Assembly (NCBI GenBank): GCA_029862745.1
Contig: JAOTWS010000005.1
Location: 62,001-126,000 of the forward strand
Length of the DNA stretch: 64,000 nucleotides
Source: Nitrosopumilus sp.
GTDB taxonomy: Archaea > Thermoproteota > Nitrososphaeria > Nitrososphaerales > Nitrosopumilaceae
Direction: 5' to 3'
Part shown: in pieces, positions 9,288-26,797 of the stretch
Numbering within the stretch: the first letter of the stretch is position 1
Layout: each line of letters begins with the position of its first letter
Program-made: the position numbers and the translations under genes
The notes under the pieces: generated by a model
Told to the model about the DNA's origin: nothing
The model's input: only the letters and a program-made list of their open reading frames with translations
The model's database searches: none

Positions 9288-10325
9288 TTACATTTTTGGT
9301 TCAAGGCCTTTTGCCAATCTTAATGCATCTACAAGACCATCTGCATACCCTATACTCAAAATTGCTACTTCTTCTTGACCATCTTCTAGAAATTTTTCTG
9401 CATCTTGAACATACAGCTCTGCATTTTCTAAAATCCCATGAAATTCTTTTTGTTCTTTATAATATGGTGTAATTTCTTCAAGTGCGTCTCTTACCATTGG
9501 GACATACTTTTTCATCATCTGAATTGAAATCTTTTTTGTTTTTTCACTGTTATCATACGGTTCATCTACACACTGACCAAATATTTTGAGTGCATCTGAT
9601 TCTGTAAAGTGTAATCTTCCCGGAATAATTATTGTATGTGGAGGTTTACCAAAATTAATCTTCATTAAACTAGAAATTTTACCTGAAATTATTTTTTGAT
9701 CCTTGAATCCAATTCTAGATGCAACTATTACATATGTAGATAAATTTACGACATTTCTTTTTTGTCCTTTTTCTGTTTCTACTAATATCTCTAATGCATC
9801 TTTAGGATCTAAAAAGAAATTCTTGTCTTGATTATATTCTAAAAGTAACATAGTATGATTTCCTTCAATGATATTTTTGTAAATTATATAGTAAGGAGTT
9901 GTGAGTGATTTAATTTCATTCATAATTGTTGCAATTCTTCCAACTTTGTAAAAATGTAAACCACATTCACCAATAATTGAAGTAAGAGATGAAGATGCGT
10001 GAATAGAGTGTGTCTTTATTTTTTCTTCTATTGCTCTAGTTCTTAATTCGATATGTGTTGTTGCAATGTATGGATCTCCGTATGCTAACAAGATCACTTT
10101 CTTCTTCTTTGCATTTTCTAAAATCTCTTTACCATCTTCAATCATCCATCTTTTAGCTAGTATGAATTCACCTTTTGTAGCATTTTTGATTTTAATTAAA
10201 TCAGATTTTCCAATTGGACTGGTAAATTGTTCCAGATATACAGTATCTGCCTTTGATAAAGCATCTAATGCTTCAATAGGAATTGATTTAAATCCAGAAA
10301 TTCCTAAACCTATAAACCACAACAT
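9288..10325 (-). CDS. dphB: Diphthine synthase fused to a C-terminal DUF357 domain
   Basis: Residues 1 to about 265 are a tetrapyrrole-methylase-fold diphthine synthase: WFIGLGISGFKSIPIEAL at the start, an AYGDPYIATTH SAM-site segment, and PHTIIIPGRLHFTESDAL near the end. The enzyme methylates the 3-amino-3-carboxypropyl-histidine on EF-2 during diphthamide synthesis. Residues about 270-345 are an additional helical domain (KYVPMVRDALEEITPYY, SIGYADGLVDALRLAKG) that matches the archaeal DUF357 pattern. That domain is usually encoded separately. The start overlaps the stop of the upstream lysK by 1 bp, placing a translation-factor modification gene at the end of a lysW-lysX-lysK operon. Confidence 0.88.
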   Translation of the reverse strand: MLWFIGLGISGFKSIPIEALDALSKADTVYLEQFTSPIGKSDLIKIKNATKGEFILAKRWMIEDGKEILENAKKKKVILLAYGDPYIATTHIELRTRAIEEKIKTHSIHASSSLTSIIGECGLHFYKVGRIATIMNEIKSLTTPYYIIYKNIIEGNHTMLLLEYNQDKNFFLDPKDALEILVETEKGQKRNVVNLSTYVIVASRIGFKDQKIISGKISSLMKINFGKPPHTIIIPGRLHFTESDALKIFGQCVDEPYDNSEKTKKISIQMMKKYVPMVRDALEEITPYYKEQKEFHGILENAELYVQDAEKFLEDGQEEVAILSIGYADGLVDALRLAKGLEPKM

Positions 10326-11452
10326 TACTGAATATTTCTGTCGTGAAGTCTTTTTAAATGCTGTAGGGTCTTTTTGAGAATTTCTATACCTCTTAAATAT
10401 TCATCAATTGAGACTTTCTCATCAATTGTATGTGCTTCATGTGGATCACCTGGACCATATGTAACCACTGGAATATTCCATTGATTGCCTAAAACATTCA
10501 TGTCTCCTGTACCTGTTTTTCTAATTAGGGTTGGTCTTGAGTGCTCTGCTTCCATAATTCCAAGAGTAAATGCTCTTACTAATGGTGAAGTATGAGATGC
10601 CTCAAATGGCTCTGTCTCATCAAGAATTGAGTAGAATGCCTCAACTTCTCTTTCTTGGGCAATTTCTTTTACTAGTGTAGCAATTTTTTGTTCAATAGTT
10701 TTACAGTTCATATCTACTGGAATTCTAATGTCAAATGTGGTCTCACAATCTTTTGGTGTTACATTATGACTTGTTCCACCTTTAATTTCTGTCATTGTTA
10801 TAGTAAGTAGCATCCCTTTGGATTTACCTTCTTGATTCATCTCTAATCTTTCTTTGAGTTCTTTTACAAAAATCATCGATTCTTGAATTGCATTTTTTGA
10901 AAGCCACGGTGCACTTGCATGAGAACTATCATCTACACTGATTTTAAGATTAATTGCTAATCTTCCTTTATACGCGATTGTAACTTGTTTAATTCCACTT
11001 GGCTCTCCAAAAACTGCATAATCAATACCCATCTCTTTTTTTACAAGATTTTTAATTCCTGTGGCGTTCCCTTCTTCATCTACAGCTCCTACAAAAAATA
11101 CTGTTCCGTTGTTATTTTGAATTGATGCTGCAGCAAATAACATTGCCATCAATGGTGCCTTTGCATCTGATGCACCACGCCCATAAAGAGCATCTCCCTC
11201 TTTTCTTACTTTGACTTTTCCTGGAACTACATCCATATGTCCACATAACATGATCTTTGGTGATCCAGAACCTTTTTTTGCAATTATATTTCCTACTTCA
11301 TCAATTTGAATATCTTCAAACCCTAAATCATCACATTTGTCAGCTAAAAATTCCGCCATTGGTTTTTCACTAAGAGATGGTGTGTAAAGTCTTAATGCTT
11401 TTTCAAGCATCTTAACTGCAAATCTTGGTGTAACTGTAAAATTTGTGTCCAA
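10325..11452 (-). CDS. lysK: [LysW]-lysine/ornithine hydrolase (M20 peptidase family)
   Basis: The protein (375 residues) is a zinc M20 deacylase. CGHMDVVPG gives H72 and D74, GRGASDAK gives the bridging D96, and AVDEEGNATG gives the catalytic Glu pair. Its position directly after lysW and lysX identifies it as LysK, which releases lysine (or ornithine) from the LysW carrier, rather than a general carboxypeptidase or DapE. It starts at TTG 11452, 3 nt after the lysX stop; an in-frame ATG at 11413 would remove 13 residues. It overlaps dphB by 1 bp, consistent with one transcript. Confidence 0.9.
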   Translation of the reverse strand: MDTNFTVTPRFAVKMLEKALRLYTPSLSEKPMAEFLADKCDDLGFEDIQIDEVGNIIAKKGSGSPKIMLCGHMDVVPGKVKVRKEGDALYGRGASDAKAPLMAMLFAAASIQNNNGTVFFVGAVDEEGNATGIKNLVKKEMGIDYAVFGEPSGIKQVTIAYKGRLAINLKISVDDSSHASAPWLSKNAIQESMIFVKELKERLEMNQEGKSKGMLLTITMTEIKGGTSHNVTPKDCETTFDIRIPVDMNCKTIEQKIATLVKEIAQEREVEAFYSILDETEPFEASHTSPLVRAFTLGIMEAEHSRPTLIRKTGTGDMNVLGNQWNIPVVTYGPGDPHEAHTIDEKVSIDEYLRGIEILKKTLQHLKRLHDRNIQ

Positions 11453-11455
11453 TTC

Positions 11456-12298
11456 TTATTTGTCTATCTTCCGTGCATAATCAAGCATTGCTGATGGGAT
11501 GTCTACTCCACATACTCTTACAGTGTTCTTGTATTCTGTTGTATTGTTGACCTCGTGGACAACTAGTCCTTTCTCATCACTTTCCATTAAATCTACACCT
11601 ACGATATCTCCTTGAACTGCTTGTTTTGCCTTTATACACATTTCTTCCATTTCTTGTGTTATTTTGCATGGTTCGGCTGTTCCTCCAAGTGCCATGTTAG
11701 TTTTCCAATGTTTTGAAATTCTATAAATTGCTGCAATTATTTTATCTCCTACCATTATTGCTCTAATGTCTCTTGGTGGTCTTTGTACAAACTCTTCTAA
11801 GTAGTGAATCTGATAAATTGGATACATATTTTCTCTGCTCTCAAGAATTCCATCTGCAGAATCCGTATCGTTTAATTTTGAAATTAATCTTCCCCAACTA
11901 CCGACTGTTGGTTTGATGACTCTTGGAAATCCTTGAGTTTGCAAAGCTTCCAATGCTGATTCTTTTGAAAACGCAACAGTTGCATCAGGTGTTGGAACTC
12001 CAAATTTTTTTAATAACATATGTGTAAATAATTTATTTCCTGCAAAAACACCCGTGTTAAGGCAATTGATCACTTTAACACCAAGTCCTTCAAGTGCTGC
12101 AGTTGAATGAAGATTTCTGTAATAACTTACACATCTCTGAATGACTACCCCATAATCCTCGGGTTTTTTTTCTAAATCTAATGCTAACTTCTTACAATCA
12201 ACCATCTGTATGTTGATGTTCTTTTTTTTACCTGCTTCTAACAGGGCTTTTTCTTCCCAACGGATGGTATCGTAAAGAATAGTAACGTCAGGACTCAC
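11456..12298 (-). CDS. lysX: LysX/ArgX-family LysW ligase, copy 1 (ATP-grasp)
   Basis: This RimK-type ATP-grasp ligase of 280 residues attaches the alpha-amino group of 2-aminoadipate (LysX) or glutamate (ArgX) to the carrier LysW. Visible are PRVIKPTVGSWGR (ATP-grasp loop), FVQRPPRDIRAIMVGD and HEVNNTTEYKNTVRV, the end-domain motif in which NNT binds metal/ATP. The GTG start at 12298 overlaps the lysW stop (GTGA); a TTG at 12307 is less likely. The copy at 24577-25434 is clearly paralogous. The TTEYKNTVRV motif here versus TVEFKGLARV there probably reflects different substrates. By context with lysK I favour aminoadipate for this copy, at low certainty. Confidence 0.88.
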   Translation of the reverse strand: MSPDVTILYDTIRWEEKALLEAGKKKNINIQMVDCKKLALDLEKKPEDYGVVIQRCVSYYRNLHSTAALEGLGVKVINCLNTGVFAGNKLFTHMLLKKFGVPTPDATVAFSKESALEALQTQGFPRVIKPTVGSWGRLISKLNDTDSADGILESRENMYPIYQIHYLEEFVQRPPRDIRAIMVGDKIIAAIYRISKHWKTNMALGGTAEPCKITQEMEEMCIKAKQAVQGDIVGVDLMESDEKGLVVHEVNNTTEYKNTVRVCGVDIPSAMLDYARKIDK

Positions 12299-12462
12299 TG
12301 TCCCCAATCCTCGCCAACCGTTTGGGCAGGCTTTAGTTGGAAACCGTCTGATTTTTTTTCTAATTCAAAACTTGCGCCACATTCCGGACATGTTACAATT
12401 TCCCCCTCAAGTGCATCACTTGGAACAGAAATGTCTGCATCACATTCTTCACATTTTGACAT
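12295..12462 (-). CDS. lysW: LysW amino-group carrier protein, copy 1, with C-terminal Gln
   Basis: A 55-residue acidic zinc-ribbon protein with C4/C7 (MSKCEEC) and C25/C28 (TCPECG). It ends in VGEDWGQ. LysW carries biosynthetic intermediates of lysine and arginine through a link to its C-terminal glutamate in the conserved EDWGE tail. Here the last codon is CAG, so the tail is EDWGQ. The coding frame, the zinc ligands and the 4-bp GTGA overlap with lysX are otherwise intact, so the gene looks functional. The second LysW in this window ends in EDWGE. Whether Gln is deamidated, used otherwise, or marks a dead carrier cannot be decided from sequence. Confidence 0.88.
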   Translation of the reverse strand: MSKCEECDADISVPSDALEGEIVTCPECGASFELEKKSDGFQLKPAQTVGEDWGQ

Positions 12463-12946: not shown

Positions 12947-14062
12947 CTAAACTCTTAGACTGATTCTAGATCTTGCAGTAATTACAACAATGCTTATAAT
13001 CGCAACCATCAATACCATCATTGCAACAGTACCAAATTCTGGGACAACTGTTGCAACAGTATCAATTTTTTCAAGAATTACATCCACTTGTGAATTAACT
13101 TTAGAGATGGATTCCTTGTCTTTAATCATATTTCGGAGATCTTCTCTTAACATGATTTCTACTTCCTCCATCAGTTCTTTTTGGTCTAATTCAATGAGAG
13201 GAGCTTCGAGAAATTCAAAGTTATCAAGATATGCTTTTGTAGCAAGGCTTAGTGCCAAGTCCGTATTACCATTACCATACTCTAGTTTTGTTTGCTCAAG
13301 TAGTTCTCTTATGTTTTTGACATAATCTAATAGATTGTTTCCTTCATCTTCAACACCTAAGACTTCATCAAGTTCATGAATTATACTCTTCACTATATTT
13401 TCAACTTGCAAAGGATCTGCTTTTGCATCATATGCTGCCCAAAGATCTATGTAAAATTCATCAATCTCTTCGGCCATGTGTGAGTCAATATCTGGTTTTA
13501 TTTCGCTGAAAATCTGTTGTGATCTCCATACAAATGCAGAACCATCCTGGAATTCAGCCATTTCGGCGATGACTCCATCAGATACTGCCTCGCCATACTC
13601 TGCTATCGATGTTTCAAGTAAGACTTTCATTAATTCAGTCTTAAATGCCGTTTCTTTACTCAATTCATCTCCAACAACAGTTGAACGTGCTATTGCAATT
13701 ACGCCTTTTGCATCATCAATCGCTTGCTGAGCCTGTGCACGTGTTACCTTGGTGTTTACCTTATCTTTTAGTTCCATCAATGTTTTTTGAACTTGAGCAT
13801 CAAGGTTAGAATCTGATGCCTTTAGTGTAGGTTTCATTGAATCATACAGCTCTGAAATTGGATGTGTTGCATGAATTAACGCAAGTTCCGCATTTTTATC
13901 ATCAAGATTTTGTTCTAATGCCCAAAAATGCCCAAGTGTTTCCTCAAGGGAAGAAGCAAAGTCGACTTTGTCTTGATAGGATTCTGCAGAAACTACTTGT
14001 GAAAAAGCAGTAGTGAGAAGAACAGAAGTCATCAGAAATGTCAATATTGTAACTTTTGTCAT
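12947..14062 (-). CDS. PEFG-CTERM surface protein related to the FTR1 extracytoplasmic domain
   Basis: The 371-residue protein starts with a signal peptide (VTILTFLMTSVLLTTAFSQVVSA). It is rich in acidic helices and ends with VVPEFGTVAMMVLMVAIIS followed by a short basic tail (TARSRISLRV). That is the thaumarchaeal PEFG-CTERM signal recognised by an archaeosortase-type enzyme. A central repeat (KAYLDNFEFLEAPLIELDQ...LREDLRNMIKDKESI) closely resembles two repeats in the N-terminal part of the FTR1 permease encoded at 16282-18489. A role as surface iron-binding or iron-delivery partner is inference from this shared domain and proximity. It has its own promoter region (14063-14174 separates it from the HyuA-like gene). 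Confidence 0.85.
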   Translation of the reverse strand: MTKVTILTFLMTSVLLTTAFSQVVSAESYQDKVDFASSLEETLGHFWALEQNLDDKNAELALIHATHPISELYDSMKPTLKASDSNLDAQVQKTLMELKDKVNTKVTRAQAQQAIDDAKGVIAIARSTVVGDELSKETAFKTELMKVLLETSIAEYGEAVSDGVIAEMAEFQDGSAFVWRSQQIFSEIKPDIDSHMAEEIDEFYIDLWAAYDAKADPLQVENIVKSIIHELDEVLGVEDEGNNLLDYVKNIRELLEQTKLEYGNGNTDLALSLATKAYLDNFEFLEAPLIELDQKELMEEVEIMLREDLRNMIKDKESISKVNSQVDVILEKIDTVATVVPEFGTVAMMVLMVAIISIVVITARSRISLRV

Positions 14063-14174
14063 TAGTCGTTAACTATAGAATATCGATTTAAAGGGTTGGT
14101 GTATTCTTTGAATTTATTCTAAATGTGTAGAATTGTAACTACGTGAAAAATTAACTATGGATTTCTATATTATT

Positions 14175-16301
14175 TTATAATTCAATTACAATTGATGCTC
14201 GTTCATTTTCATCTAACTCTTGTTTGACTGCATTGAGTATGTGGGAAGATGATGTTAAACTAGAATAATCAATCAATTTTAAATCATTGATCAGATATAC
14301 TTGCGGGGCAACATCATTATTCCTAGATTCTAGAAAATCATCTAATTCCTCAAGTATGGACATTTTTCCACCTTGGAAAATCTTTCCATTTTTTAAATAT
14401 TTTTTCATTTTACCGAATCTATCAAGTATGAGAAATGGATGACGATGTTTTTTACTAAAAAGATGTTTTTCGGTAATATGTCCAGCAAATACTAGATAAT
14501 GATCAGATTCAAAACTAAGATCAGTTAATTCTTCTGAAATTTGGAGTATTTCACTGGCTCTACTTTTTGCTTCATGTAATGTGAAAACATTCTTTGTGGT
14601 TTCTACACTGTCGAGTTCTACATTTCCGATAGCAGTTATTCGTAAAATAGATTTGTCGGGGATATATTGACTATCAATTACAATTGATTCAGGAACTGCT
14701 CCTTTACCAATCATCATTGCATGAATTTTTTTATGTGCCTGGTTGATCAATTCTGGAGTTGGATCAATTAATGTCTGTTCAACTTCTTCTTGCAGCATTG
14801 ATGATGCAACACCAATAGATGATATGACTTCGGCATGTTTTGCCTTTTGGTATTGTAATTGTAGTTGTTTTGCCACAAATGGTACCAATACAGATGCACC
14901 CCCTCCACCACCAACTATTTTTGTTGTTTGAGGATTTAGTTTAAATTCTTTTATAACTTTACTAATTGTTTTCATTATCTCAAAAGAGGATGTTTGGATT
15001 ATGGACTGGGCAATTTCGATAAATGTCACACCCAGTTCTTTTGCTAGAATCTCAATAGCAATTTTTGCAGATTCTTTGTTTGCAAATGCATAGTCATCAC
15101 CATCAATCATCCCCAAAGCGTTAGCAGCGCATGTGTTTGTAATAGCATATAGTCCACTTTTGCACTCAATTACGACATATTCATCATCGTTTTCTTTAGG
15201 TCTAATCCTAGTTACTTTCCCTTTTTTTAGTTCTTCAGGATCTGCAAAGCAGGAATATTTTAGTCCAGCAATATGGGCACTTCTAGGCCCTATCTTCCAC
15301 ACTCTATTGTCTTTGAGTCTAACCATGCTACCTCCTGCAACTCCTAAAATTCTCACATCCATAGAACGAACACATGTTGGATGATCTTTAATTGTGACAT
15401 ACTGAAATTCGGGTTTCCCATTTTTAATTATACAGATATTGGTACTAGTTCCACCTACCTCTACAAAGATACCATTAGTGACTTTAAGATGAAGAAGTGC
15501 CCCTGCTACACTTGCTGCAGGACCAGACAGGATAGTGAGGATAGGTTTTATTTTAAAAGTATCGATGCTTGTGACGCCTCCATCACCTTTCATTATCATT
15601 AATGGTGCTTTAACTCCTACATCGCGAATTGCTTGTTCTACAAAATTTGCAACTTGGAAAGTTTTAGGTAACACACTTGCATTAATTGCACCTGTAAGTG
15701 TTCGTATTTCAAGCCCATAGGTTCCAGAAATTTCATGCGATGCAGTAGATGGCATATTAAGGTCTGCGGCATTTTTCATTACAAACAATTCATTTGAAGG
15801 ATCATCTACACCAAATGACTCGGTCGCAACAATCACTTTTGCACCCTTATTCTTTAGATCTTGTATAGCATCTTTCACTTCTTCTTCAGAAATCAAATGG
15901 GAAGTATCCAAAAATGTATGACATATCTTGATGTCTTGCTCAGAATTAATTTTTGTATCTTGCAAATTTGTGCGTTTGATGACATCTTTCTTTTCAGGAC
16001 CAACACCCATAGCAATTATTCCAACTTTGGAAGTGTCCGATTCTAACAGAGCATTGATTGCCTGAGTAGTACTATGAGAAATCAATTCTATGTCTTCTAA
16101 ATTAATTTTAGATTCATTCAAAATATTTGAGATAGTCTGCACTATTCCTTCAGAAACCCCTTTCTTGGAGGTGTGGGTGGTGGGTACAGTGGATTTTGAA
16201 ACAATCAATCCCGTTTTATTATCTATTGCAACAGCTTTTGTAAAAGTTCCACCCACATCAATTCCAATTCTAATTCTTTGTTTATTGGGTATTTTTAACA
16301 C
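14175..16301 (-). CDS. Hydantoinase/oxoprolinase family (HyuA-like) ASKHA ATPase
   Basis: The 708-residue product starts with an ASKHA phosphate-binding loop (IRIGIDVGGTFTKAVAIDN). It contains ELISHSTTQAINALLE, a second glycine-rich core (ILSGPAASVAGALLH, FVEVGGTSTNICII) and KIVGGGGGASVLVPFVA, all typical of HyuA/oxoprolinase A-type subunits. Such enzymes cleave cyclic amides with ATP, usually with a HyuB partner that is not present here. The GTG start lies inside the end of the FTR1 gene (20-bp overlap), so it is translated from the same mRNA. A biochemical link to iron uptake is not known to me; the substrate is unassigned. Confidence 0.85.
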   Translation of the reverse strand: MLKIPNKQRIRIGIDVGGTFTKAVAIDNKTGLIVSKSTVPTTHTSKKGVSEGIVQTISNILNESKINLEDIELISHSTTQAINALLESDTSKVGIIAMGVGPEKKDVIKRTNLQDTKINSEQDIKICHTFLDTSHLISEEEVKDAIQDLKNKGAKVIVATESFGVDDPSNELFVMKNAADLNMPSTASHEISGTYGLEIRTLTGAINASVLPKTFQVANFVEQAIRDVGVKAPLMIMKGDGGVTSIDTFKIKPILTILSGPAASVAGALLHLKVTNGIFVEVGGTSTNICIIKNGKPEFQYVTIKDHPTCVRSMDVRILGVAGGSMVRLKDNRVWKIGPRSAHIAGLKYSCFADPEELKKGKVTRIRPKENDDEYVVIECKSGLYAITNTCAANALGMIDGDDYAFANKESAKIAIEILAKELGVTFIEIAQSIIQTSSFEIMKTISKVIKEFKLNPQTTKIVGGGGGASVLVPFVAKQLQLQYQKAKHAEVISSIGVASSMLQEEVEQTLIDPTPELINQAHKKIHAMMIGKGAVPESIVIDSQYIPDKSILRITAIGNVELDSVETTKNVFTLHEAKSRASEILQISEELTDLSFESDHYLVFAGHITEKHLFSKKHRHPFLILDRFGKMKKYLKNGKIFQGGKMSILEELDDFLESRNNDVAPQVYLINDLKLIDYSSLTSSSHILNAVKQELDENERASIVIEL

Positions 16302-18489
16302 CTCTAGATTTTCTCATAGATGCCAGTTGTCTTTCTTTATTGGGCCTTAACACCAATACATATGACGATGCAAGTAAATAAACTCCCAATAGCATTGCTT
16401 GTGCAATTACAGTTTCTAATGTGGGATAAATTCCAGTCATAGCTGCTAGGTTGATGTCCAATCTAGGAATTATTCCGATCATACTAGTGTATGGAATAAT
16501 ATCTAGTATCTGAAGTTCTCGTATGGCATTTCCTAAAAATGCAATTGATAGATATGCACCAACACCCATAGTCAATCCAAACAAGGCGCGTAATGGTAAT
16601 CGTTTTCCAAGTTTTTTCATCACATAATATAACCCCAATAATGAAATAATACCCAAAACAAAACCCAAACCTACATACATTTCCATGTATTTTGCAAAAC
16701 CCGACATCGCTTGATAGAACAAGACAGTTTCAAATCCTTCTCGATAGACGGTAAAAAATGAAAGCATTACAAAAACCATAACACTACCAGTTGTAGTTGC
16801 CTGCCACACCTTGGCCTTTACAAACTCCATCCATTTTTTATGTTCAATTTTATTTAAAACCCAAAAACTCACATAAAACAAAACAGCAGTTGCAGACAAT
16901 GCAGCTATTGCTTCAATTAATTCCCGATTAGCCCCTGAAATTTCAATTATATACGATGCAATAATCCAAGTAATTGCAGTTGCTGCAAATGCTGCAATGA
17001 CGCCATAGTAGATGTATTTTTTCAGTTGATTATTCCTTGATGCTTCAAGATACGTCATAATTGCACCAAGAATTAAGACAGATTCTAATCCTTCTCGGAA
17101 AATTATTGCAAATGACGAAGTAAATGCTATTGAAGGCGCCAAAGAACCTGTTCCGCTTACAAGTCTTTCAGATTCATCCAAATTCCTATTTATTTCAATC
17201 ACTACATCTCTTACTTTTTCCAAATCTTCTTTTTTATCGATAAGATTTCGCAGTTCTGCAAATTGATATTCTACCTCCAGAGTGAAATCAGGATCTATTG
17301 CCCTTAGTGGAATCTCTACAAATTCATAACTGTCCAAATATGCTATTCTTGCTGTAGCATAAGCAGACTGGAAGTCGCCGTCACCATAAAAAATTACCAC
17401 ATCATCCAAGGAATCTCTGATAAAATCAACTTCATTTCTAACTATAGATTTTGCTTCTTCAGTTGAATCACCCATTTTTTTAAGATCCTGATCTGAAATC
17501 TCAGTTTGTGTTAATACAGATGAGTTTATGATTAATTGTTTAGAGATCAAAGATTGTGATTTGTTAAGATCCGGAACAATTTTTTCATCTAAAAATTGCT
17601 TAATCTCATTAGATGTCTTTTTATTTTTTATCATGTCACGTAAATTTTCACGCATGTCAATCTCAAGAGTATAAAGTAAATCCTTGTCAATTTTTTCAAT
17701 TGTTGGTTCTAAGTATTCAAAATTATCAAGATACGCAATGATGGCTTTTTCTTCAGCCATAACATAGTCTCCTGAATTAAGTGATTCAACAAGTTCGTCA
17801 TATATCTTGTAGATGTTTTGATATAGTTCTAATTGATCAAGGGCAACAGTCTGAGTGCCTAAAACATCTTTTTGTATGGCAGTAATCAAACTACTTACTT
17901 TTACAAAATCTTCCTTTTTCTCTGCAAGATTGTTTAGATCCTTGAAAAAAGATTCAATTTCTAGATTAAGCCTATCATCAAAAGTTGTTTCATCAAGCAA
18001 ACTTTCAGATTTTTGGATTAGTTTTAGAGCAATTTGGTATGATACTTCATCATTGTTTTGAACTCCCTTCTGATATCGCTCATCTGCAATTGACAGCAAA
18101 TTGACAATCACATAATTTATTGAATCTTGTTCATGTGGAATTTTTCGGAGTAAGTTTAGATTTTTATCAATTTCTGACAATATTTCAGCATTTGAATTAA
18201 TTTTTGAATTTAGATCTAACAATGAAATATGAATCTCATCTACATGTTCATAACCCGTCATTCTGAGTGTTTGGATATATTTGCCAAAAATTTCTGAAGA
18301 GAATGTAGAGTATTTCTTTGCATCTTCTAAATTATTTAAAATCAAACTGTCTTTGGTTTGATCTAATCCCAAGGACGTAGATTCAATAGCGGTTCTAATA
18401 TCTCCCGAGTTTGAATATGCATATACCCCATCAATACTGATTGTAAATACAAAAAATGCAAGAAATATTACTATAATTCTAGTTTCCAT
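16282..18489 (-). CDS. FTR1-family high-affinity iron permease with large extracytoplasmic domain
   Basis: The 735-residue product has a signal peptide (IIVIFLAFFVFTISIDGVYA). About 430 residues of acidic helical extracytoplasmic sequence follow, with two YLDxxExxE-type repeats (AYLDNFEYLEPTIEKID and AYLDSYEFVEIPLRAID). The C-terminal FTR1 permease of about seven membrane segments carries both iron-binding REGxE motifs (FREGLESVLILG and YREGFETVLFYQA). It should import ferric iron across the cytoplasmic membrane. The start at ATG 18489 is chosen because it begins directly with the signal peptide; an in-frame upstream start would add 20 residues before it. The 3' end overlaps the HyuA-like gene by 20 bp. 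Confidence 0.92.
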   Translation of the reverse strand: METRIIVIFLAFFVFTISIDGVYAYSNSGDIRTAIESTSLGLDQTKDSLILNNLEDAKKYSTFSSEIFGKYIQTLRMTGYEHVDEIHISLLDLNSKINSNAEILSEIDKNLNLLRKIPHEQDSINYVIVNLLSIADERYQKGVQNNDEVSYQIALKLIQKSESLLDETTFDDRLNLEIESFFKDLNNLAEKKEDFVKVSSLITAIQKDVLGTQTVALDQLELYQNIYKIYDELVESLNSGDYVMAEEKAIIAYLDNFEYLEPTIEKIDKDLLYTLEIDMRENLRDMIKNKKTSNEIKQFLDEKIVPDLNKSQSLISKQLIINSSVLTQTEISDQDLKKMGDSTEEAKSIVRNEVDFIRDSLDDVVIFYGDGDFQSAYATARIAYLDSYEFVEIPLRAIDPDFTLEVEYQFAELRNLIDKKEDLEKVRDVVIEINRNLDESERLVSGTGSLAPSIAFTSSFAIIFREGLESVLILGAIMTYLEASRNNQLKKYIYYGVIAAFAATAITWIIASYIIEISGANRELIEAIAALSATAVLFYVSFWVLNKIEHKKWMEFVKAKVWQATTTGSVMVFVMLSFFTVYREGFETVLFYQAMSGFAKYMEMYVGLGFVLGIISLLGLYYVMKKLGKRLPLRALFGLTMGVGAYLSIAFLGNAIRELQILDIIPYTSMIGIIPRLDINLAAMTGIYPTLETVIAQAMLLGVYLLASSYVLVLRPNKERQLASMRKSRGVKNTQ

Positions 18490-18707
18490 AATGAACAAGT
18501 CGAAAATTCTATAGAAGGTATTTAAATTTCTGATTAATTCTACAATCATAGAATGAAAATATTTTAGATATGTAATTAAAATTCTAGAAGTTTATTCTAA
18601 AACTAAATCCTGCACTTCTGAAATTACTGGTTTTTTATTAAATAGATTACTTTAAAATTTTTTAGGATAAAAAAATGGATCCATTGTAGACCAAAAAATT
18701 TGATATT

Positions 18708-19838: not shown

Positions 19839-20999
19839 TTACTTAGATATTTTTCTCTCAAGTCTGTCTTCTAGTGGTATTTCAATTAAATCTCCCATTC
19901 TGAGATTCTTTAATCCATACGCAACTGCTTTTGCACCTTCATCGTCTTTTTCTAAACCTAGTAATGACATTAAATACGCTGCACCTGTTTTTCCTGCTAG
20001 TTCTCCAAAAACAATTCGTCGTCTGTTTCCTACTGCTCTAGGTGGAATTGGCTCATACGCTGCAGGGTTTCTAAGAATTGCTGCAAGATGTGTACCGGCT
20101 TTGTGTTTGTATGCTGAGCTCCCAACAATTGGTTTAGAATCATAAGGTACAATCTTTGTGTATTCTTCAATTAATCTAGATAGATCAAGTAGCATGTCTA
20201 ATCTCAAATCATTTGGTGATTTGTAAAGATATGTTAAGGCTACTGCCACTTCTGCAAGAGGTGGAATTCCTGTTCTTTCTCCAATACCGTCAATGGTAGT
20301 ATGAATTTGATCAACTCCTGCATCACATGCTGAAAATGCATTTGCAAGTGCAAAACCAATATCATTGTGAACGTGTGCATCTAATGGTACATCTACTACC
20401 TCTCTGACTTTCTTAACAAAATTGAACATCCCAATAGGACGCAAAATTCCAACAGTATCTGGAAGACTAATTCTATCAACACCTGCTTTTTCTATTGCCG
20501 TGCAAACTTTTAGCAAAAATTCTGGCTCTGCTCTACTTCCATCTTCTACAGTAAATCTGATTTTAAGACCGTGAGACTTTGCATACTCTACAGTTCCAAC
20601 TGCTCTCTCAAGTGCCTCTTCTCTTGAAATTCGTAGTTTGTCTTTTAGATGTATATCTGAAATTCCTAAATATGCTGCACACCACTTTGCATCACAATCT
20701 AATGAAGTATCTATGTCTTCTTTTAGTGCTCGTCCATGGGAAACAATATCTGCTTTTAATCCTTGTTTGATAATTGTCTTAGTTGCCTCTTTGTGGTCGC
20801 CTGATACAACTGGTGATATTTCTATTTGATCTACACCAAAATAATCTAACATCCACGCAATCTGAATCCTTTGTTTGTTTGTAAACGAAACACCAGGGTG
20901 TTGTTCCCCTTCTCGTAAAGTACTATCTAATATTCGTATCTTCTTTGGAGTCTTGTCATATGCATTGTAGATGTTTGCATAGTGATTCGGATCTTTCAT
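19839..20999 (-). CDS. Homocitrate synthase (LysS-type; isopropylmalate-synthase family)
   Basis: This 386-residue HMG-CoA-lyase-like TIM barrel has the family signature RILDSTLREGEQHPGV (about 22-37), the metal-binding HVHNDIGFALANA and the GIGERTGIPPLAEV segment. It lacks the C-terminal LeuA allosteric domain, as expected for the LysS/homocitrate synthase type. It condenses acetyl-CoA with 2-oxoglutarate, the first step of the aminoadipate route to lysine. Its position next to the lysW-lysXYZJ cluster supports homocitrate over 2-isopropylmalate. It is transcribed separately from a TATA box at 21026-21033 and is probably leaderless. Confidence 0.9.
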   Translation of the reverse strand: MKDPNHYANIYNAYDKTPKKIRILDSTLREGEQHPGVSFTNKQRIQIAWMLDYFGVDQIEISPVVSGDHKEATKTIIKQGLKADIVSHGRALKEDIDTSLDCDAKWCAAYLGISDIHLKDKLRISREEALERAVGTVEYAKSHGLKIRFTVEDGSRAEPEFLLKVCTAIEKAGVDRISLPDTVGILRPIGMFNFVKKVREVVDVPLDAHVHNDIGFALANAFSACDAGVDQIHTTIDGIGERTGIPPLAEVAVALTYLYKSPNDLRLDMLLDLSRLIEEYTKIVPYDSKPIVGSSAYKHKAGTHLAAILRNPAAYEPIPPRAVGNRRRIVFGELAGKTGAAYLMSLLGLEKDDEGAKAVAYGLKNLRMGDLIEIPLEDRLERKISK

Positions 21000-21115: not shown

Positions 21116-21535
21116 TTACACTATTTTTCTCAAAATTATTACGGTATTGGTATCTACAACACCTGGAATTTTTCTTAATGCGTCAATTGTATTGTTGATC
21201 TCAGAAATACTTGAACCACTCATTATTGTTGTAATGTCATATTGTCCCGTTATCTCATAAACTGTTTTTATTCCGTCCAACTTGGCAAGCTTCAGAGAAA
21301 CTTTGGATGTGTCCATTGCGGAATCTACTGAAACTAAAACAATTGCACTTGTTGTATTTTCCTCGCCAAGTTCTAAAGTAAATTTTTTAATAGTTTTGTT
21401 ATCAACTAAATTTTTTACACGTCTTCTAACTGCTGATTCTGATAACTTTAATTTTTTTCCAATGTCTACAAATGATTCTCTTGCATCTTCTTTGAGGTAA
21501 CCAATAATTTTTTCATCTATACTGTCTTTATACAT
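21116..21535 (-). CDS. Lrp/AsnC-family regulator (LysM-like)
   Basis: The protein (139 residues) has an N-terminal winged helix (FVDIGKKLKLSESAVRRRV, about 20-38) and a C-terminal RAM/AsnC ligand domain (about 65-139; KTVYEITGQYDITTIMSG, RKIPGVVDTNTVIIL). It is the last gene of the arginine/lysine operon and overlaps the lysJ 3' end by 8 bp. In Sulfolobus an Lrp-type protein called LysM controls the lysine cluster, so lysine- or arginine-responsive control of this operon is a reasonable inference from location. Confidence 0.88.
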   Translation of the reverse strand: MYKDSIDEKIIGYLKEDARESFVDIGKKLKLSESAVRRRVKNLVDNKTIKKFTLELGEENTTSAIVLVSVDSAMDTSKVSLKLAKLDGIKTVYEITGQYDITTIMSGSSISEINNTIDALRKIPGVVDTNTVIILRKIV

Positions 21536-22703
21536 TAAGTTTTTTCTCCTCTTCAGTTAGTACAATATCTAAAATATCTAAAACTTTTCTTATATCATCT
21601 TCGGATATTACTAAAGGAGGAAGAATTCTTAGTATGTTTCTGCCTGAGTATAGCATGAGAACTCCTTTTTTTATCAATGCCATCAAAATACCTTTTACTT
21701 CAAATTTCATCTCTACTCCTATCATTAGTCCCATCCCTCTGACTTCTCTAATTATGGTGTGTTTCTCTTTTAGTTTTTCTAAACCCTCTCTGAATATTTT
21801 TCCCATTTTTTCAGAATTTTCAATCAATCCATCCTCAGTTAATGCCTTAAGTGCTGCAATTCCTGCTGCACAAGATAATGGGTTACCACCAAATGTTGAT
21901 GAGTGTTCTCCTTTACTCATTGTAGCTAAAATATCGTGTCTTACAAGTGTGGCTCCCATTGGAACTCCACCTGCAATTCCTTTTGCAAGGCACAAAATAT
22001 CTGGAGCTGTATTCCAATGATCACAAGCCCAAATTCGTCCAGTTCTACCAAGACCAGCTTGTATTTCGTCGAAGATTAACAGAATTCCTTTTTCATCACA
22101 AAGTTTTCTTACTTCTTGCAAAAATCTCTCTGGTGCAACATTTATTCCACTTTCACCCTGTATTGGTTCTAAAATCACAAATGCAGTATCTTTATCAATT
22201 ACTGAACGAAGAGATTCAATATCTCCAAATGATGCGAAGGAAACTTTCTCAACAAGTGGTTCAAATGCTTTTTTATATTTTGGATTAAATGTTAATGATA
22301 ATGCTCCCAGTGATTTTCCATGGTATGATCCTTTCATTGCCACCATTCCTTTTTTACCTGTAAACTTTCTTGCAAATTTTATAGCTGCTTCAATTGCTTC
22401 TGCACCGCTGTTGTTTAGATGAACTTGTGTGAGTCCTTTTGGTGCTAATTTGATAAGTATTTGTAAAAATTCCTCTCTTGTCTTGTTGTATAATGAACTG
22501 TGAACTGTAATGATTTTGTCAATCTGTTCTTTGATTGCATTGTTCACTCTTTGATTTTGATGACCCACTAGTGATACTCCATACCCTCCCATACAATCGA
22601 TGTATTCTTTTCCGTCTACATCCCATACATGACATCCTACCCCTTTTTCAATTGTTACTGGAAACCTCTGATAGAGATTTCCCATGAATTGATCTTCACT
22701 CAT
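21528..22703 (-). CDS. lysJ: [LysW]-aminoadipate semialdehyde / glutamate semialdehyde aminotransferase
   Basis: A 391-residue class III PLP aminotransferase. GSYHGKSLGALSLTFNPKY, the PLP-ring Asp region LIFDEIQAGLGRTG and the Schiff-base lysine in LCLAKGIAGGVPMGA are present. It overlaps the kinase gene start by 8 bp and sits between lysZ and the Lrp gene. In archaea this enzyme works on both LysW-aminoadipate semialdehyde (lysine) and LysW-glutamate semialdehyde (ornithine), so it is LysJ/ArgD bifunctional by context. Confidence 0.92.
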   Translation of the reverse strand: MSEDQFMGNLYQRFPVTIEKGVGCHVWDVDGKEYIDCMGGYGVSLVGHQNQRVNNAIKEQIDKIITVHSSLYNKTREEFLQILIKLAPKGLTQVHLNNSGAEAIEAAIKFARKFTGKKGMVAMKGSYHGKSLGALSLTFNPKYKKAFEPLVEKVSFASFGDIESLRSVIDKDTAFVILEPIQGESGINVAPERFLQEVRKLCDEKGILLIFDEIQAGLGRTGRIWACDHWNTAPDILCLAKGIAGGVPMGATLVRHDILATMSKGEHSSTFGGNPLSCAAGIAALKALTEDGLIENSEKMGKIFREGLEKLKEKHTIIREVRGMGLMIGVEMKFEVKGILMALIKKGVLMLYSGRNILRILPPLVISEDDIRKVLDILDIVLTEEEKKLNV

Positions 22704-23499
22704 TTTTTATTACCGTACAGTTATCATGTGCAATTGCCGCTGATATAGGATTTTCTTTTTGACCGTTTGCAATCAATGCCTCTTTTACTCCCATATCTAG
22801 TGCTTCAGTAGATGCTAGGATCTTCTTTTCCATACCTGGTCCAATTTTTGATCTGATCTCTTTTGCTTCAGCAAGCGTCAGTTTTGTAACTAACATATCA
22901 TCCATTAGTAATCCATCTACATTTGTGATGAATAATACTCTGCTACAACCCACTTTGCCTGCTACATATGCTGCAGCTCTGTCTCCGTCAACGTTGAGGA
23001 ATTCTGATTCTTCGCTGATGGCAATGGGTGAAATTACAGGTGTTAATCCTTGCTCTAAGAGTAATTTGATAAATTTGGAGTTGACATCGGTGATTTTTCC
23101 AGTATATCCGCCGTCAATTGCCTGTTTTCTACCTTTTTCATTCATTATGAGAAGTTTCTTTTTTCTATCGGCTTGAATTATTTTTGCATCTACTCCTGAA
23201 AGACCAATTGCATTAACGCCATTTTTCTGAAGCATCTGAACTATTGTTTTGTTTATTCTGCCAGACATTACCATTGTAAAAATCTCTGCAGTTTCTTTAT
23301 CCGTATATCTACTTTTGATTCCACTTGGTGATGTTACAAACTTTGGTTCTTTTCCAAGTTGTTTACAAACTTTTGTGACTTCTTTACCTCCACCATGAAC
23401 TAGAATTATTCCTTCAGTCTCTGCAATTTTTTTAATGTCTGTAATTATGGACGGGTGGAGATTATCAACAACACTTCCACCAATCTTAATTGTGATCAT
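22696..23499 (-). CDS. lysZ: [LysW]-aminoadipate / glutamate kinase
   Basis: This 267-residue amino-acid kinase family protein begins MITIKIGGSVVDNL and has IILVHGGGKEVTKVC, the ArgB/LysZ nucleotide and substrate loops, and FLNVDGDRAAAYVAGKVG near the C-terminus. It phosphorylates the side-chain carboxylate of the LysW-bound intermediate. It is separated from the reductase gene by 2 bp and overlaps lysJ, so it is inside the same operon. The single copy in this window presumably serves both lysine and arginine routes. Confidence 0.92.
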   Translation of the reverse strand: MITIKIGGSVVDNLHPSIITDIKKIAETEGIILVHGGGKEVTKVCKQLGKEPKFVTSPSGIKSRYTDKETAEIFTMVMSGRINKTIVQMLQKNGVNAIGLSGVDAKIIQADRKKKLLIMNEKGRKQAIDGGYTGKITDVNSKFIKLLLEQGLTPVISPIAISEESEFLNVDGDRAAAYVAGKVGCSRVLFITNVDGLLMDDMLVTKLTLAEAKEIRSKIGPGMEKKILASTEALDMGVKEALIANGQKENPISAAIAHDNCTVIKNE

Positions 23500-23501
23500 T
23501 T

Positions 23502-24551
23502 CTAAACAGGAGTTAGTGGAGTATATCTTAGTCCATCCATTTCATCAAAGCCACACATAACATTCATGTTTTGAATAGCAGATCCCGCTGCACCTTTCAT
23601 CAGATTGTCTGATGCAGACATTGCAATTAATCTATTGTTGTCTTCATCTATATCAAAACCAATATCACAAAAGTTTGAACCAACAAGGAATTTTGGATCT
23701 GGGAATTTGTATAATCCTTTTTTATCTCGAATCAGTCTGATGAATTTCTCTTCTCCATAAACTTCACGATATAATTTCCACAATTCTTTTTCTCCAATAT
23801 CTTTTTTCAAGAATGTGTGATTTGTACACAAGATACCACGAACTACGTCAACTGCATGCGGACTCATCGAAACGCGAATTTTCTTTCCTGCAATTTCGCT
23901 TAATTCTTGTTCAATCTCACCAGTATGTCTATGCTTTGCTGGTTTATATGGTCTGATAACTCCTGCTCTCATTGCATGTGCAGTTCCTGAACCAGAACCT
24001 GCACCTGATGAACCAATCTTTGAATCAACTATGATGTGTTCAGTGTCAATAATATCATTTCTGATTAATGGTGCAAGTGCAAGTATTGATGTTACTGCCA
24101 TACATCCTGGACATGAAACAAGCTGTGCTTTTTTGATTTGCTCTCTGTGTAATTCAGGAACTCCAAAAACTGATTTTGTTAAATAATCTGGATGTGGATG
24201 TTCCCAGCCATACCATTTGTCATATGCTTCTTGATTGTGTAATCTATAGTCTGCACTCAAATCAATTATTTTGATTCCTCTGTCATATAGTGCCTTTACA
24301 ATCTCAGTCGCAGTCCCATGAGGAACTGCTGTGAACACTACATCACATTTGTCAGTTAATTTGTCATAATCTAATTCTGAAAAAGTCAGATCGGTAAATC
24401 CTTTCAGACTTGGTTGAACTCTGTGAAGATATTCTCCAACATGTTGTCTTGATGTTACCATGCTGATCTCAACATCTGGGTGATTGACTAAAAGACGAAG
24501 CGTCTCTCCACCTACATAACCTGATGCTCCTACTATACCTACCTTCAACAT
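23502..24551 (-). CDS. lysY: [LysW]-aminoadipyl / glutamyl phosphate reductase
   Basis: The 349-residue protein matches ArgC/LysY. It has an N-terminal Rossmann motif, VGIVGASGYVGGETLRLL, the catalytic cysteine in LVSCPGCMAVTS, and the conserved histidine stretch PAKHRHTGEIEQEL. It reduces the acyl phosphate made by LysZ to the semialdehyde with NADPH. The gene sits between lysX (25-bp gap) and lysZ. The start at ATG 24551 begins directly with the Rossmann strand. Confidence 0.93.
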   Translation of the reverse strand: MLKVGIVGASGYVGGETLRLLVNHPDVEISMVTSRQHVGEYLHRVQPSLKGFTDLTFSELDYDKLTDKCDVVFTAVPHGTATEIVKALYDRGIKIIDLSADYRLHNQEAYDKWYGWEHPHPDYLTKSVFGVPELHREQIKKAQLVSCPGCMAVTSILALAPLIRNDIIDTEHIIVDSKIGSSGAGSGSGTAHAMRAGVIRPYKPAKHRHTGEIEQELSEIAGKKIRVSMSPHAVDVVRGILCTNHTFLKKDIGEKELWKLYREVYGEEKFIRLIRDKKGLYKFPDPKFLVGSNFCDIGFDIDEDNNRLIAMSASDNLMKGAAGSAIQNMNVMCGFDEMDGLRYTPLTPV

Positions 24552-24576: not shown

Positions 24577-25434
24577 TTATTTCCTAACGTAATCTAGCGT
24601 AAATTTTACCATTTCTTGTGGTATATTTCGTTGCGCAACTCTTGCCAGTCCCTTGAATTCAACTGTGTTGTTGACTTCATGAATGACTAAACCTTTCTTG
24701 TCATCCTCCATCATGTCAATCCCTAAAATTCCACCACCCATTGCTTTTGATGCTTTGATTGCCATATCTTCCATCTCTTTTGTGATCTTACAAAGTTCTG
24801 GATCTGCACCCAATGCGATATTTGTCTTAAAACCACCAGATGATTTTCTGTACATGGCTGCAATGGCTTGGTCTCCTATTGTAATAATCCTGATGTCTCT
24901 TGGTGGTCTTTTGATTAATTCTTGTAAATAGTAAATCCTGTCGTGTGGACTATCTGTAATGTCTCTAATTTCAAAAACTGCTTCCATCGTGTCTTTGTCT
25001 TTTAATGGCATTACTCCTCTTCCCCAACTTCCAATTACTGGTTTGATTACCAGAGGAAATCCAACTTTTTCTAAATTCACTGCTGCACTCTCACTTGAGA
25101 ATGAAAAATATGTTTTTGGTGTTGGAATGTTATGTTTTTTCAATAATAATGTCATAAACATTTTATTTCCACAAATATTTGCAACTTCAAACTTATTTAG
25201 TACTGGAATATCTAAAAATTCTAGACTTGCTGTAAAATGAAGACCTCTGAAATAACTAACACATCTTTCTAAGACAACATCTCCTAAATCATAGTCTTCT
25301 TTTTTACTATCTGTGTTGATTTGAGTGATTTTTGCGTCTAACATCACTACATTGTGTCCTAGATCGATTGCTTCTTTCTGAAGCATCTTTTCTTCCGCTC
25401 TTAGGCGGTCAAACACGATACAGACCTTTGACAT
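24577..25434 (-). CDS. LysX/ArgX-family LysW ligase, copy 2 (ATP-grasp)
   Basis: A 285-residue ATP-grasp ligase paralogous to the one at 11456-12298. Shared landmarks are PLVIKPVIGSWGRGVMPL, LIKRPPRDIRIITIGD and VIHEVNNTVEFKGLARV. It couples the first substrate to LysW. The operon contains argG just upstream and the shared lysYZJ downstream, so this copy may be the glutamate-specific ArgX while copy 1 is LysX. That division is inference from context and the differing VEFKG/TEYKN motif. The ATG at 25434 shares one base with the lysW stop (TAATG). Confidence 0.9.
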   Translation of the reverse strand: MSKVCIVFDRLRAEEKMLQKEAIDLGHNVVMLDAKITQINTDSKKEDYDLGDVVLERCVSYFRGLHFTASLEFLDIPVLNKFEVANICGNKMFMTLLLKKHNIPTPKTYFSFSSESAAVNLEKVGFPLVIKPVIGSWGRGVMPLKDKDTMEAVFEIRDITDSPHDRIYYLQELIKRPPRDIRIITIGDQAIAAMYRKSSGGFKTNIALGADPELCKITKEMEDMAIKASKAMGGGILGIDMMEDDKKGLVIHEVNNTVEFKGLARVAQRNIPQEMVKFTLDYVRK

Positions 25435-25601
25435 TACTCTCCCCAGTCTTCGCCTACGCTTTCTGCTTGCTTAAGCTCAACATTTGATCCATCTTTTTTT
25501 GCGATTTCAAAGTCAGCACCACAATCAGGACAGGAGACTATTTCTCCAACTGAGGCATCCTCTGGGATATTTATTATTGCATCACATTCTGGGCATTTCA
25601 T
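25434..25601 (-). CDS. lysW: LysW amino-group carrier protein, copy 2 (canonical EDWGE tail)
   Basis: This 55-residue zinc-ribbon carrier starts MKCPECDAIINIPEDA, has a second cysteine pair in VSCPDCGADFE, and ends in VGEDWGE. The terminal Glu is the residue that links to aminoadipate or glutamate in characterised LysW. It overlaps the argG stop by 4 bp (ATGA) and the ligase start by 1 bp, so translation is tightly coupled. It differs from copy 1 in the last residue and through much of the middle region. Confidence 0.93.
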   Translation of the reverse strand: MKCPECDAIINIPEDASVGEIVSCPDCGADFEIAKKDGSNVELKQAESVGEDWGE

Positions 25602-26797
25602 ATTTTTTTTGAACTTTTCTTTTGTAATTTATTAGCTTCTGTAGACTGCATTCCCCATAACTCTACAAATCCTTTAGCCGATCTTTGATCAAATGTAGAT
25701 TCTGTTCCATATGTAGCAATCTTGTGACTATACAACGAGTTCTTGGACTTTCTTCCTACAACTCTGAGACTTCCTTTGAATAACTTGAGTTTCACAGTCC
25801 CAGTAACTGGTTTTTGTGATGCTTCAATAAATCCATCTAAATCTGATTTAAGTGGATCTTGCCATAATCCTGAATATGTTAAATATGCCCATTCATCATC
25901 TATTAATGATTTAAATTTATTTTCATGTTTAGTGTGTACCATTTTTTCTAAATCCATATGTGCTTCAATTAGGCAGGTTGCTGCTGGGGTTTCATAAACT
26001 TCTCTTGATTTAATTCCAACAACTCTGTCTTCGATATGGTCTACAATCCCAACACCTGCATCACCTGCTTTCTTGTTCATATACTCAATTAATTTTTGAC
26101 CTTCCATTATCTTTCCGTCCACACCAATTGGGATTCCTTGTTGAAATTGTATCTCTAAGTATGTTGGCTTATCTGGCAAGTTTTTTGTTTTAACCCAAAT
26201 GAATGCATCATCTGGTGGTTCGTTGTATGGGTCTTCTAATACCCCACCTTCAATTGCACGTCCCCATAAGTTTTGATCAATACTGAATCTTTTTGCAACA
26301 GCATCAATTTCTATACCGTGCTTTTTTGCAAATTTTAATTCAGTTTTTCTGTCTAGATTTTTATCTCTAATTGGAGCTATGATTGGAAGGTCCGAACCAG
26401 AACGTAGTGTGATATCAAAACGTACTTGATCATTTCCTTTACCTGAACAACCATGTGCAAGTGATGTGACTTTTTCTTTTTTTGCAATTTCTAATACTTT
26501 TTCTGCGATAAGTGGTCTTGCAAGAGCTGTTGCAAGACAATACTTTTTCTGATAAAGTGCATTGGCTTTAATTGCTGGAAAGATGTAATTTTTGACAAAT
26601 TCTTTCCGTGCATCTACATTGTAGTGTTTTTTTACTCCGAGTTTTTTTGCTTTGGCTGCAATTTTTTTACTGTCATCACCCTGTCCTACATCTACTGTTA
26701 CTGTGATTACATCCATGTCGTGTTCTTCTTGTAGGTATTTTACAACAACTGAAGTATCTAATCCTCCAGAAAATGCAAGAATTCCTTTTTGAGTCAT
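25598..26797 (-). CDS. argG: Argininosuccinate synthase
   Basis: The 399-residue product has the N-type ATP pyrophosphatase loop ILAFSGGLDTSVVVKYL (about 6-22), the HGCSGKGNDQVRFD segment and RAIEGGVLEDPYNEPPDDAF, all diagnostic of ArgG. It joins citrulline and aspartate in arginine synthesis. It is the first gene of the operon argG-lysW-lysX/argX-lysY-lysZ-lysJ-lrp, and shares a 132-bp divergent promoter region with the ABC transporter. The C-terminus is lysine-rich (KLQKKSSKKI). Confidence 0.96.
   Translation of the reverse strand: MTQKGILAFSGGLDTSVVVKYLQEEHDMDVITVTVDVGQGDDSKKIAAKAKKLGVKKHYNVDARKEFVKNYIFPAIKANALYQKKYCLATALARPLIAEKVLEIAKKEKVTSLAHGCSGKGNDQVRFDITLRSGSDLPIIAPIRDKNLDRKTELKFAKKHGIEIDAVAKRFSIDQNLWGRAIEGGVLEDPYNEPPDDAFIWVKTKNLPDKPTYLEIQFQQGIPIGVDGKIMEGQKLIEYMNKKAGDAGVGIVDHIEDRVVGIKSREVYETPAATCLIEAHMDLEKMVHTKHENKFKSLIDDEWAYLTYSGLWQDPLKSDLDGFIEASQKPVTGTVKLKLFKGSLRVVGRKSKNSLYSHKIATYGTESTFDQRSAKGFVELWGMQSTEANKLQKKSSKKI

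Follow-up and report, generated by a model that had tools for sequence, protein, structure and literature searches.

In the LysW pathway of lysine and arginine biosynthesis, archaea hold the substrate on the C-terminal residue of a small carrier protein, and the attachment residue is the defining feature of the carrier system. In haloarchaea, LysW ends in EDWGE, and the substrate is attached by its amine to the side-chain (gamma) carboxyl of the last Glu (PMC10433800). A metabolic model of the ammonia-oxidizing archaeon SCM1 gives the standard LysW pathway, in a description that mentions no maturation step (PMC6038301). A comparable use of the terminal residue is found in the bacterial modifier Pup, which is encoded with a terminal Gln in mycobacteria and with a terminal Glu in Corynebacterium. 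Dop acts both as the deamidase of PupQ and as the isopeptidase, and C. glutamicum, which makes PupE, retains dop (PMC8599861, PMC3511204).

The archaeal locus considered here encodes a LysW that ends in Gln. Such a tail is real, conserved and recurrent. Since attachment needs a gamma-carboxyl, which is absent from Gln, a LysW(Gln) implies a maturation step, and the Gln tail probably reflects one in a central biosynthetic pathway. If the carrier is indeed born unable to accept its substrate, then the synthesis of lysine, and in some species of arginine, relies on an amide removal that has gone unrecognised. A search of the open-access literature, with few subscription journals, turned up no account of a LysW that ends in Gln, so the novelty is uncertain.

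The lysW1 gene and its genomic setting

The window, that is, the whole stretch of 64,000 nucleotides of Nitrosopumilus sp. that was analysed, carries the following lysine/arginine genes:

10325-11452, minus strand: lysK, M20 family [LysW]-lysine hydrolase (TIGR01902, above cut-off)
11456-12298, minus strand: lysX1, ATP-grasp ligase with GSWGR intact (TIGR02144 LysX_arch, 329.9 bits, cut-off 275.6)
12295-12462, minus strand: lysW1, 55-aa amino-group carrier ending EDWGQ (translation, NCBIfam, Pfam)
12298-12300, minus strand: CAG, the terminal Gln codon of lysW1 (sequence; Glu at this place in all solved LysW)
19839-20999, minus strand: gene of the homocitrate synthase / isopropylmalate synthase family (LeuA/LysS best matches, all below cut-off)
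21528-22703, minus strand: lysJ/argD aminotransferase (TIGR00707, above cut-off; synteny)
22696-23499, minus strand: lysZ/argB kinase (open reading frame; named by recognition and synteny)
23502-24551, minus strand: lysY/argC reductase (open reading frame; named by recognition and synteny with the clusters of relatives)
24577-25434, minus strand: lysX2, ArgX-like, directly after lysW2 (open reading frame; LysX tree)
25434-25601, minus strand: lysW2, second carrier, ending EDWGE (open reading frame; genome-wide search)
25598-26797, minus strand: argG, argininosuccinate synthase (open reading frame; named by recognition and synteny)

Translation of 12295-12462 on the minus strand gives MSKCEECDADISVPSDALEGEIVTCPECGASFELEKKSDGFQLKPAQTVGEDWGQ followed by the stop codon, and the 3' end of the gene reads GAG GAT TGG GGA CAG TGA, with the TGA at 12297-12295. 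The initial annotation, made from the letters alone, had reported an EDWGQ end encoded by CAG together with intact zinc cysteines; both are borne out by the sequence and the translation, which contains four zinc Cys. The product scores 91 bits against NF041070 carrier_LysW_Arch of NCBIfam (cut-off 75) and 48.4 against the Pfam family Zn_ribbon_LysW, PF21344 (cut-off 27). It keeps EDWG but departs from the family in the last position, where Gln replaces the Glu of EDWGE, and so ranks as a variant and not as a standard LysW; the LysW structures in the PDB (3vpb, 3wwl, 5k2m) all terminate in DWGE.

The GTG start of lysX1 (12298-12296) overlaps the CAG/TGA of lysW1, so the two genes are coupled, as the same annotation had claimed, and lysW1 thus stands in the expected operon, overlapping a lysX1 with GSWGR that is followed by lysK. 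The overlap does not impose the Gln codon, as GAG would yield an identical GTG start; a codon forced in this way is also contradicted by Gln tails that have CAA or other stops. The closest solved relative of LysX1 is LysX 3vpd, and GSWGR is kept in at least 97% of 80 LysX, a set which had been chosen by that motif. Likewise, the best solved relative of the LysK in the window is 5xoy, a [LysW]-lysine hydrolase, and this gene is single copy in the genome. A genome-wide search finds only two LysW genes, lysW1 and lysW2, the second of which ends in EDWGE, as had been noted before. LysX2 forms a branch separate from LysX1 in the LysX tree.

The gene at 19839-20999 is presumed to be the entry to the aminoadipate route, and its homologue directly precedes lysW(Gln) in relatives. 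Its top scores are with 2-isopropylmalate synthase families, none of the LysS/LeuA equivalog cut-offs is reached, and its substrate is uncertain. Between this gene and lysW1 lie three minus-strand genes (12947-18549) that encode a 371-aa protein with no Pfam match, a hydantoinase/oxoprolinase and an FTR1-type iron permease. The spacing of lysW1 and lysW2 is 13.1 kb in the window versus about 5.8 kb in most relatives; hence the lysine/arginine cluster seems to have been split here by an insertion.

Conservation and recurrence of the Gln tail

All 30 copy-1 LysW of a first set from the genus (that of the window and 29 from congeners) end in EDWGQ. Of 80 named loci, most of them from MAGs of Nitrosopumilus, Nitrosarchaeum and other Nitrosopumilaceae, 77 have Gln and three have Glu. 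A pattern search for EDWGQ followed by a stop finds it in 211 of 300 genomes sampled from the class of the window, with 0 matches in the 300 genomes for the reversed pattern used as control. These 211 are among the 222 genomes of three families of the same order, namely f1, to which the window belongs (161/171), f8 (45/45) and f2 (5/6), while the class's other families have 0/78. Going by genus names, those f1 relatives that are named are ammonia-oxidizing archaea, and f2 and f8 presumably are ammonia oxidizers as well. Whether the copy beside lysX-lysK ends in Gln throughout the relatives was the question on which the initial annotation had made a new variant of the carrier system depend, and the counts of 30/30, 77/80 and 211/222 answer it in favour of such a variant. 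The same counts rule out a sequencing error or an isolated mutation.

Four further families of the phylum, f25, f30, f48 and f51, also have Gln-tailed LysW, and in three of them close relatives differ in this residue: f48 has Gln in G232 and Glu in G193; f30 has Gln in G116, G148 and G229 and Glu in G169 and G263; and a single genus of f25, g75, has Gln in G224 and G246 and Glu in G163. Similarly, Glu occupies the lysW1 position in at least four genomes of the window's own genus, three by direct reading (G020, G024, G031) and one by comparison of pattern matches (G045). At loci L185, L195, L201 and L072, within or near this genus, the LysW coupled to lysX1 ends in Glu (GAG), and these loci seem to have reverted from Gln to Glu. 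A quick tree of 80 LysX proteins, in which some forks are open, shows at least nine changes between Glu and Gln in the LysW next to them; the changes include close relatives in three families and the Glu returns in the window's genus. From these sequences, the Gln tail arose repeatedly elsewhere in the phylum.

In the loci sampled, the choice of residue is confined to these two. Of 168 distinct LysW loci, most of them retrieved through protein similarity, 115 have Gln at the end, 53 have Glu and none has any other residue. The Gln tails use both CAG and CAA, with all three stop codons, and hence it is the amino acid that is conserved and not an overlapping DNA signal. A pattern search of the phylum for other LysW tails, with a last codon starting with A or T, gave a match level like that of the control. 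It suggested some LysW tails with Cys or another last residue in the rest of the phylum, but the 16 regions inspected contained only chance matches outside LysW frames, and a Gln pattern match in G131 does not lie inside a LysW. The TRR of the tail pattern also accepts TGG, which produced a false second match in G066. A search of plasmids returned only four LysW, which are distant and from other phyla. In f8 genomes with two LysW (L241, L243, L053; G462, G080), the copy paired with LysX2 also ends in Gln, which differs from most of the window's family, and several f8 genomes have two Gln tails.

A profile search for LysW in 24 genomes shows that the Gln copy may stand alone. Five single-contig genomes (G066, G097, G428, G116, G232) have one LysW each, ending in Gln, and G462 has two, both Gln. 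G066, G097 and G428 share the gene order argG-lysX2-lysY-lysZ-lysJ-lrp-hcs-lysW(Gln)-lysX1-lysK-dphB, in which one Gln carrier stands alongside two LysX ligases and a Glu carrier is absent. DAP epimerase is absent from all 24 genomes and was found in nine control genomes; LysK scores above the TIGR01902 cut-off in every one of the 24. A failed duplicate would predict that there are no Gln-only genomes, and these exist; hence, by genetic inference, LysW(Gln) is almost certainly a functional carrier. On the same kind of inference, the sole carrier of G066, G097 and G428 most likely bears both lysine and arginine intermediates. In f25 (loci L244, L245, L300, L301), a second LysX-like gene adjoins lysY in the genomes with a sole Gln carrier.

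Proposed maturation of the carrier and its alternatives

Taken as a whole, the explanation that we favour as reasonably probable is that LysW(Gln) is an active carrier for lysine, and in some species also for arginine, which is made as a pro-form. The central part of it, that the Gln is deamidated to Glu before loading by LysX, is by sequence comparison and by analogy a good deal more probable than not. The side-chain amide of the terminal Gln would first be hydrolysed to give Glu. By the known chemistry of the family, LysX with ATP would then link alpha-aminoadipate or glutamate, through its amino group, to the gamma-carboxylate so formed; the bound substrate would be phosphorylated, reduced and aminated by LysZ, LysY and LysJ, as is also known; and LysK would cleave the gamma-amide, as it is known to do, to release free lysine or ornithine and a LysW with Glu. 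As release by LysK leaves Glu, the Gln would have to be removed just once per carrier molecule.

Among the options listed by the initial annotation, deamidation is the best supported, given that the only tails found are Glu and Gln, that the two interchange repeatedly, and that no dedicated partner gene is evident. No LysX residue tracks the Glu/Gln tail consistently across comparisons of 80 LysX, nor does any LysK residue in 63 LysK, and no gene near lysW is evidently common to all Gln lineages when neighbours are compared only by their order and by their resemblance to genes of the window. Since Glu and Gln swap repeatedly with the same LysX/LysK families and with neither a consistently tracking residue nor an evident extra gene, hydrolysis by something already present is the simplest reading. 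A dedicated deamidase was likewise not evident beside the Gln clusters, by the same two measures. A Dop/PafA homologue is rejected for this role, as PF03136 is found in 0/24 genomes, with C. glutamicum positive as the control. The second option of that annotation, an attachment chemistry special to LysX1, is weakened by the Gln on carriers paired with LysX2 and on sole carriers, and by the lack of any LysX residue that tracks it.

The likeliest enzyme for the deamidation may be LysK itself, because the bond that it cuts, a gamma-glutamyl amide, is also present in the side chain of Gln, only with NH3 where lysine would be; this assignment, which is by analogy, is a tentative one. Residues H72, D74, D96, E126, E127, E150 and H341 of LysK are invariant in the 63 sequences, with both tail types, and are positions whose metal and catalytic roles we take from what is understood of the M20 family. 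Against this assignment, Glu lineages have LysK as well, and its occurrence is thus no specific pointer to it.

The conversion could instead be carried out by an enzyme other than LysK, such as a separate amidase encoded elsewhere, or by slow spontaneous deamidation, with the rest of the pathway being standard. The interchange of Glu and Gln fits such a conversion equally well and LysK does not change in step with the tail, but there is neither an amidase neighbour evidently common to the Gln lineages nor a Dop/PafA homologue, and each independent gain of Gln would require the other enzyme to be present already. The spontaneous variant also has against it that the deamidation of Gln is normally very slow. 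We regard this alternative to deamidation by LysK as rather unlikely.

It is improbable that no Glu is formed in the first round and that LysX1, or LysK in reverse, swaps the Gln amide directly for the substrate amine with the release of NH3. The gamma-glutamyl transfer reaction of glutamine synthetase is a model for such a transamidation, and one LysX family does serve Gln and Glu copies without visible adaptation. However, the known LysX requires a free carboxylate and ATP, and we know of no ATP-grasp ligase that uses an amide in this way.

A further alternative is attachment of the substrate amine by a peptide bond to the alpha-carboxylate of the Gln, with the side-chain amide untouched. 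In its favour, a terminal Gln has a free alpha-carboxylate, LysX is a member of the RimK family, whose enzymes lengthen proteins at the C-terminus, and there are carboxypeptidases among the M20 hydrolases. Yet Gln and Glu carriers share the LysX family and LysY, LysZ, LysJ and LysK, even within a genome that has one LysK; the geometry of the substrate would shift in several enzymes, and neither LysX nor LysK bears a consistent trace of the repeated switching. This mode of attachment is therefore decidedly improbable.

The remaining option of the initial annotation, that LysW1 has lost its carrier function and that LysW2(Glu) serves both the lysine and the arginine routes, draws on the Glu copy in the window's genome but is very hard to sustain, as closed genomes with a sole Gln carrier retain the full lysine/arginine cluster without DAP epimerase, and the tail and its linkage to lysX1/lysK have been kept over whole families. 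Archaeal Gln-tRNA(Gln) is made through a Glu-tRNA(Gln) intermediate, and a CAG read partly as Glu by this means would give a Glu tail without deamidation; this is hardly credible, as every Gln codon would be affected, both CAG and CAA are used in Gln tails, and no reason is offered for the conservation of Gln at the tail.

Likeness to known carrier and modifier systems

The system in the window shares with the LysW/ArgW systems of Thermus thermophilus, Sulfolobus, Thermococcus and Natrinema the Zn-ribbon domain family, the EDWG tail, the coupling to lysX, the GSWGR of LysX and the LysY/Z/J/K cluster. These systems attach the substrate at Glu, whereas LysW1 has Gln in this place, which implies an extra maturation step. 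The one carrier with two ligases in G066, G097 and G428 is likewise seen in the common carrier of Sulfolobus (one LysW with LysX and ArgX). Unlike in Sulfolobus, this sole carrier ends in Gln, and in the window's genome each ligase has its own carrier, the one for LysX1 ending in Gln and the one for LysX2 in Glu.

With Pup of Actinobacteria, LysW shares the logic of a small protein that is ligated by the gamma-carboxyl of a C-terminal Glu and whose encoded terminal residue, Gln or Glu, differs between lineages; for LysW this trait has changed at least nine times. In Pup, the isopeptide hydrolase Dop also deamidates the Gln, which for LysK is only proposed. Pup is unrelated to the Zn-ribbon LysW, its target is a protein lysine and that of LysW is a metabolite, and it uses the glutamine-synthetase-like PafA/Dop where LysW uses an ATP-grasp ligase and an M20 metallohydrolase. 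By analogy, then, LysW(Gln) would resemble Pup/Dop in logic and not in membership. If true, this would be an independent parallel to the Gln/Glu switch of Pup: it is conceivable, though we advance it with reserve, that a whole lineage of abundant archaea makes its carrier for lysine, and in some members for arginine, as an inactive Gln pro-protein, the amide of which is removed by LysK, the hydrolase that also releases the product. Such a system would be the equivalent of Pup/Dop with a metallohydrolase, and would have several independent origins.
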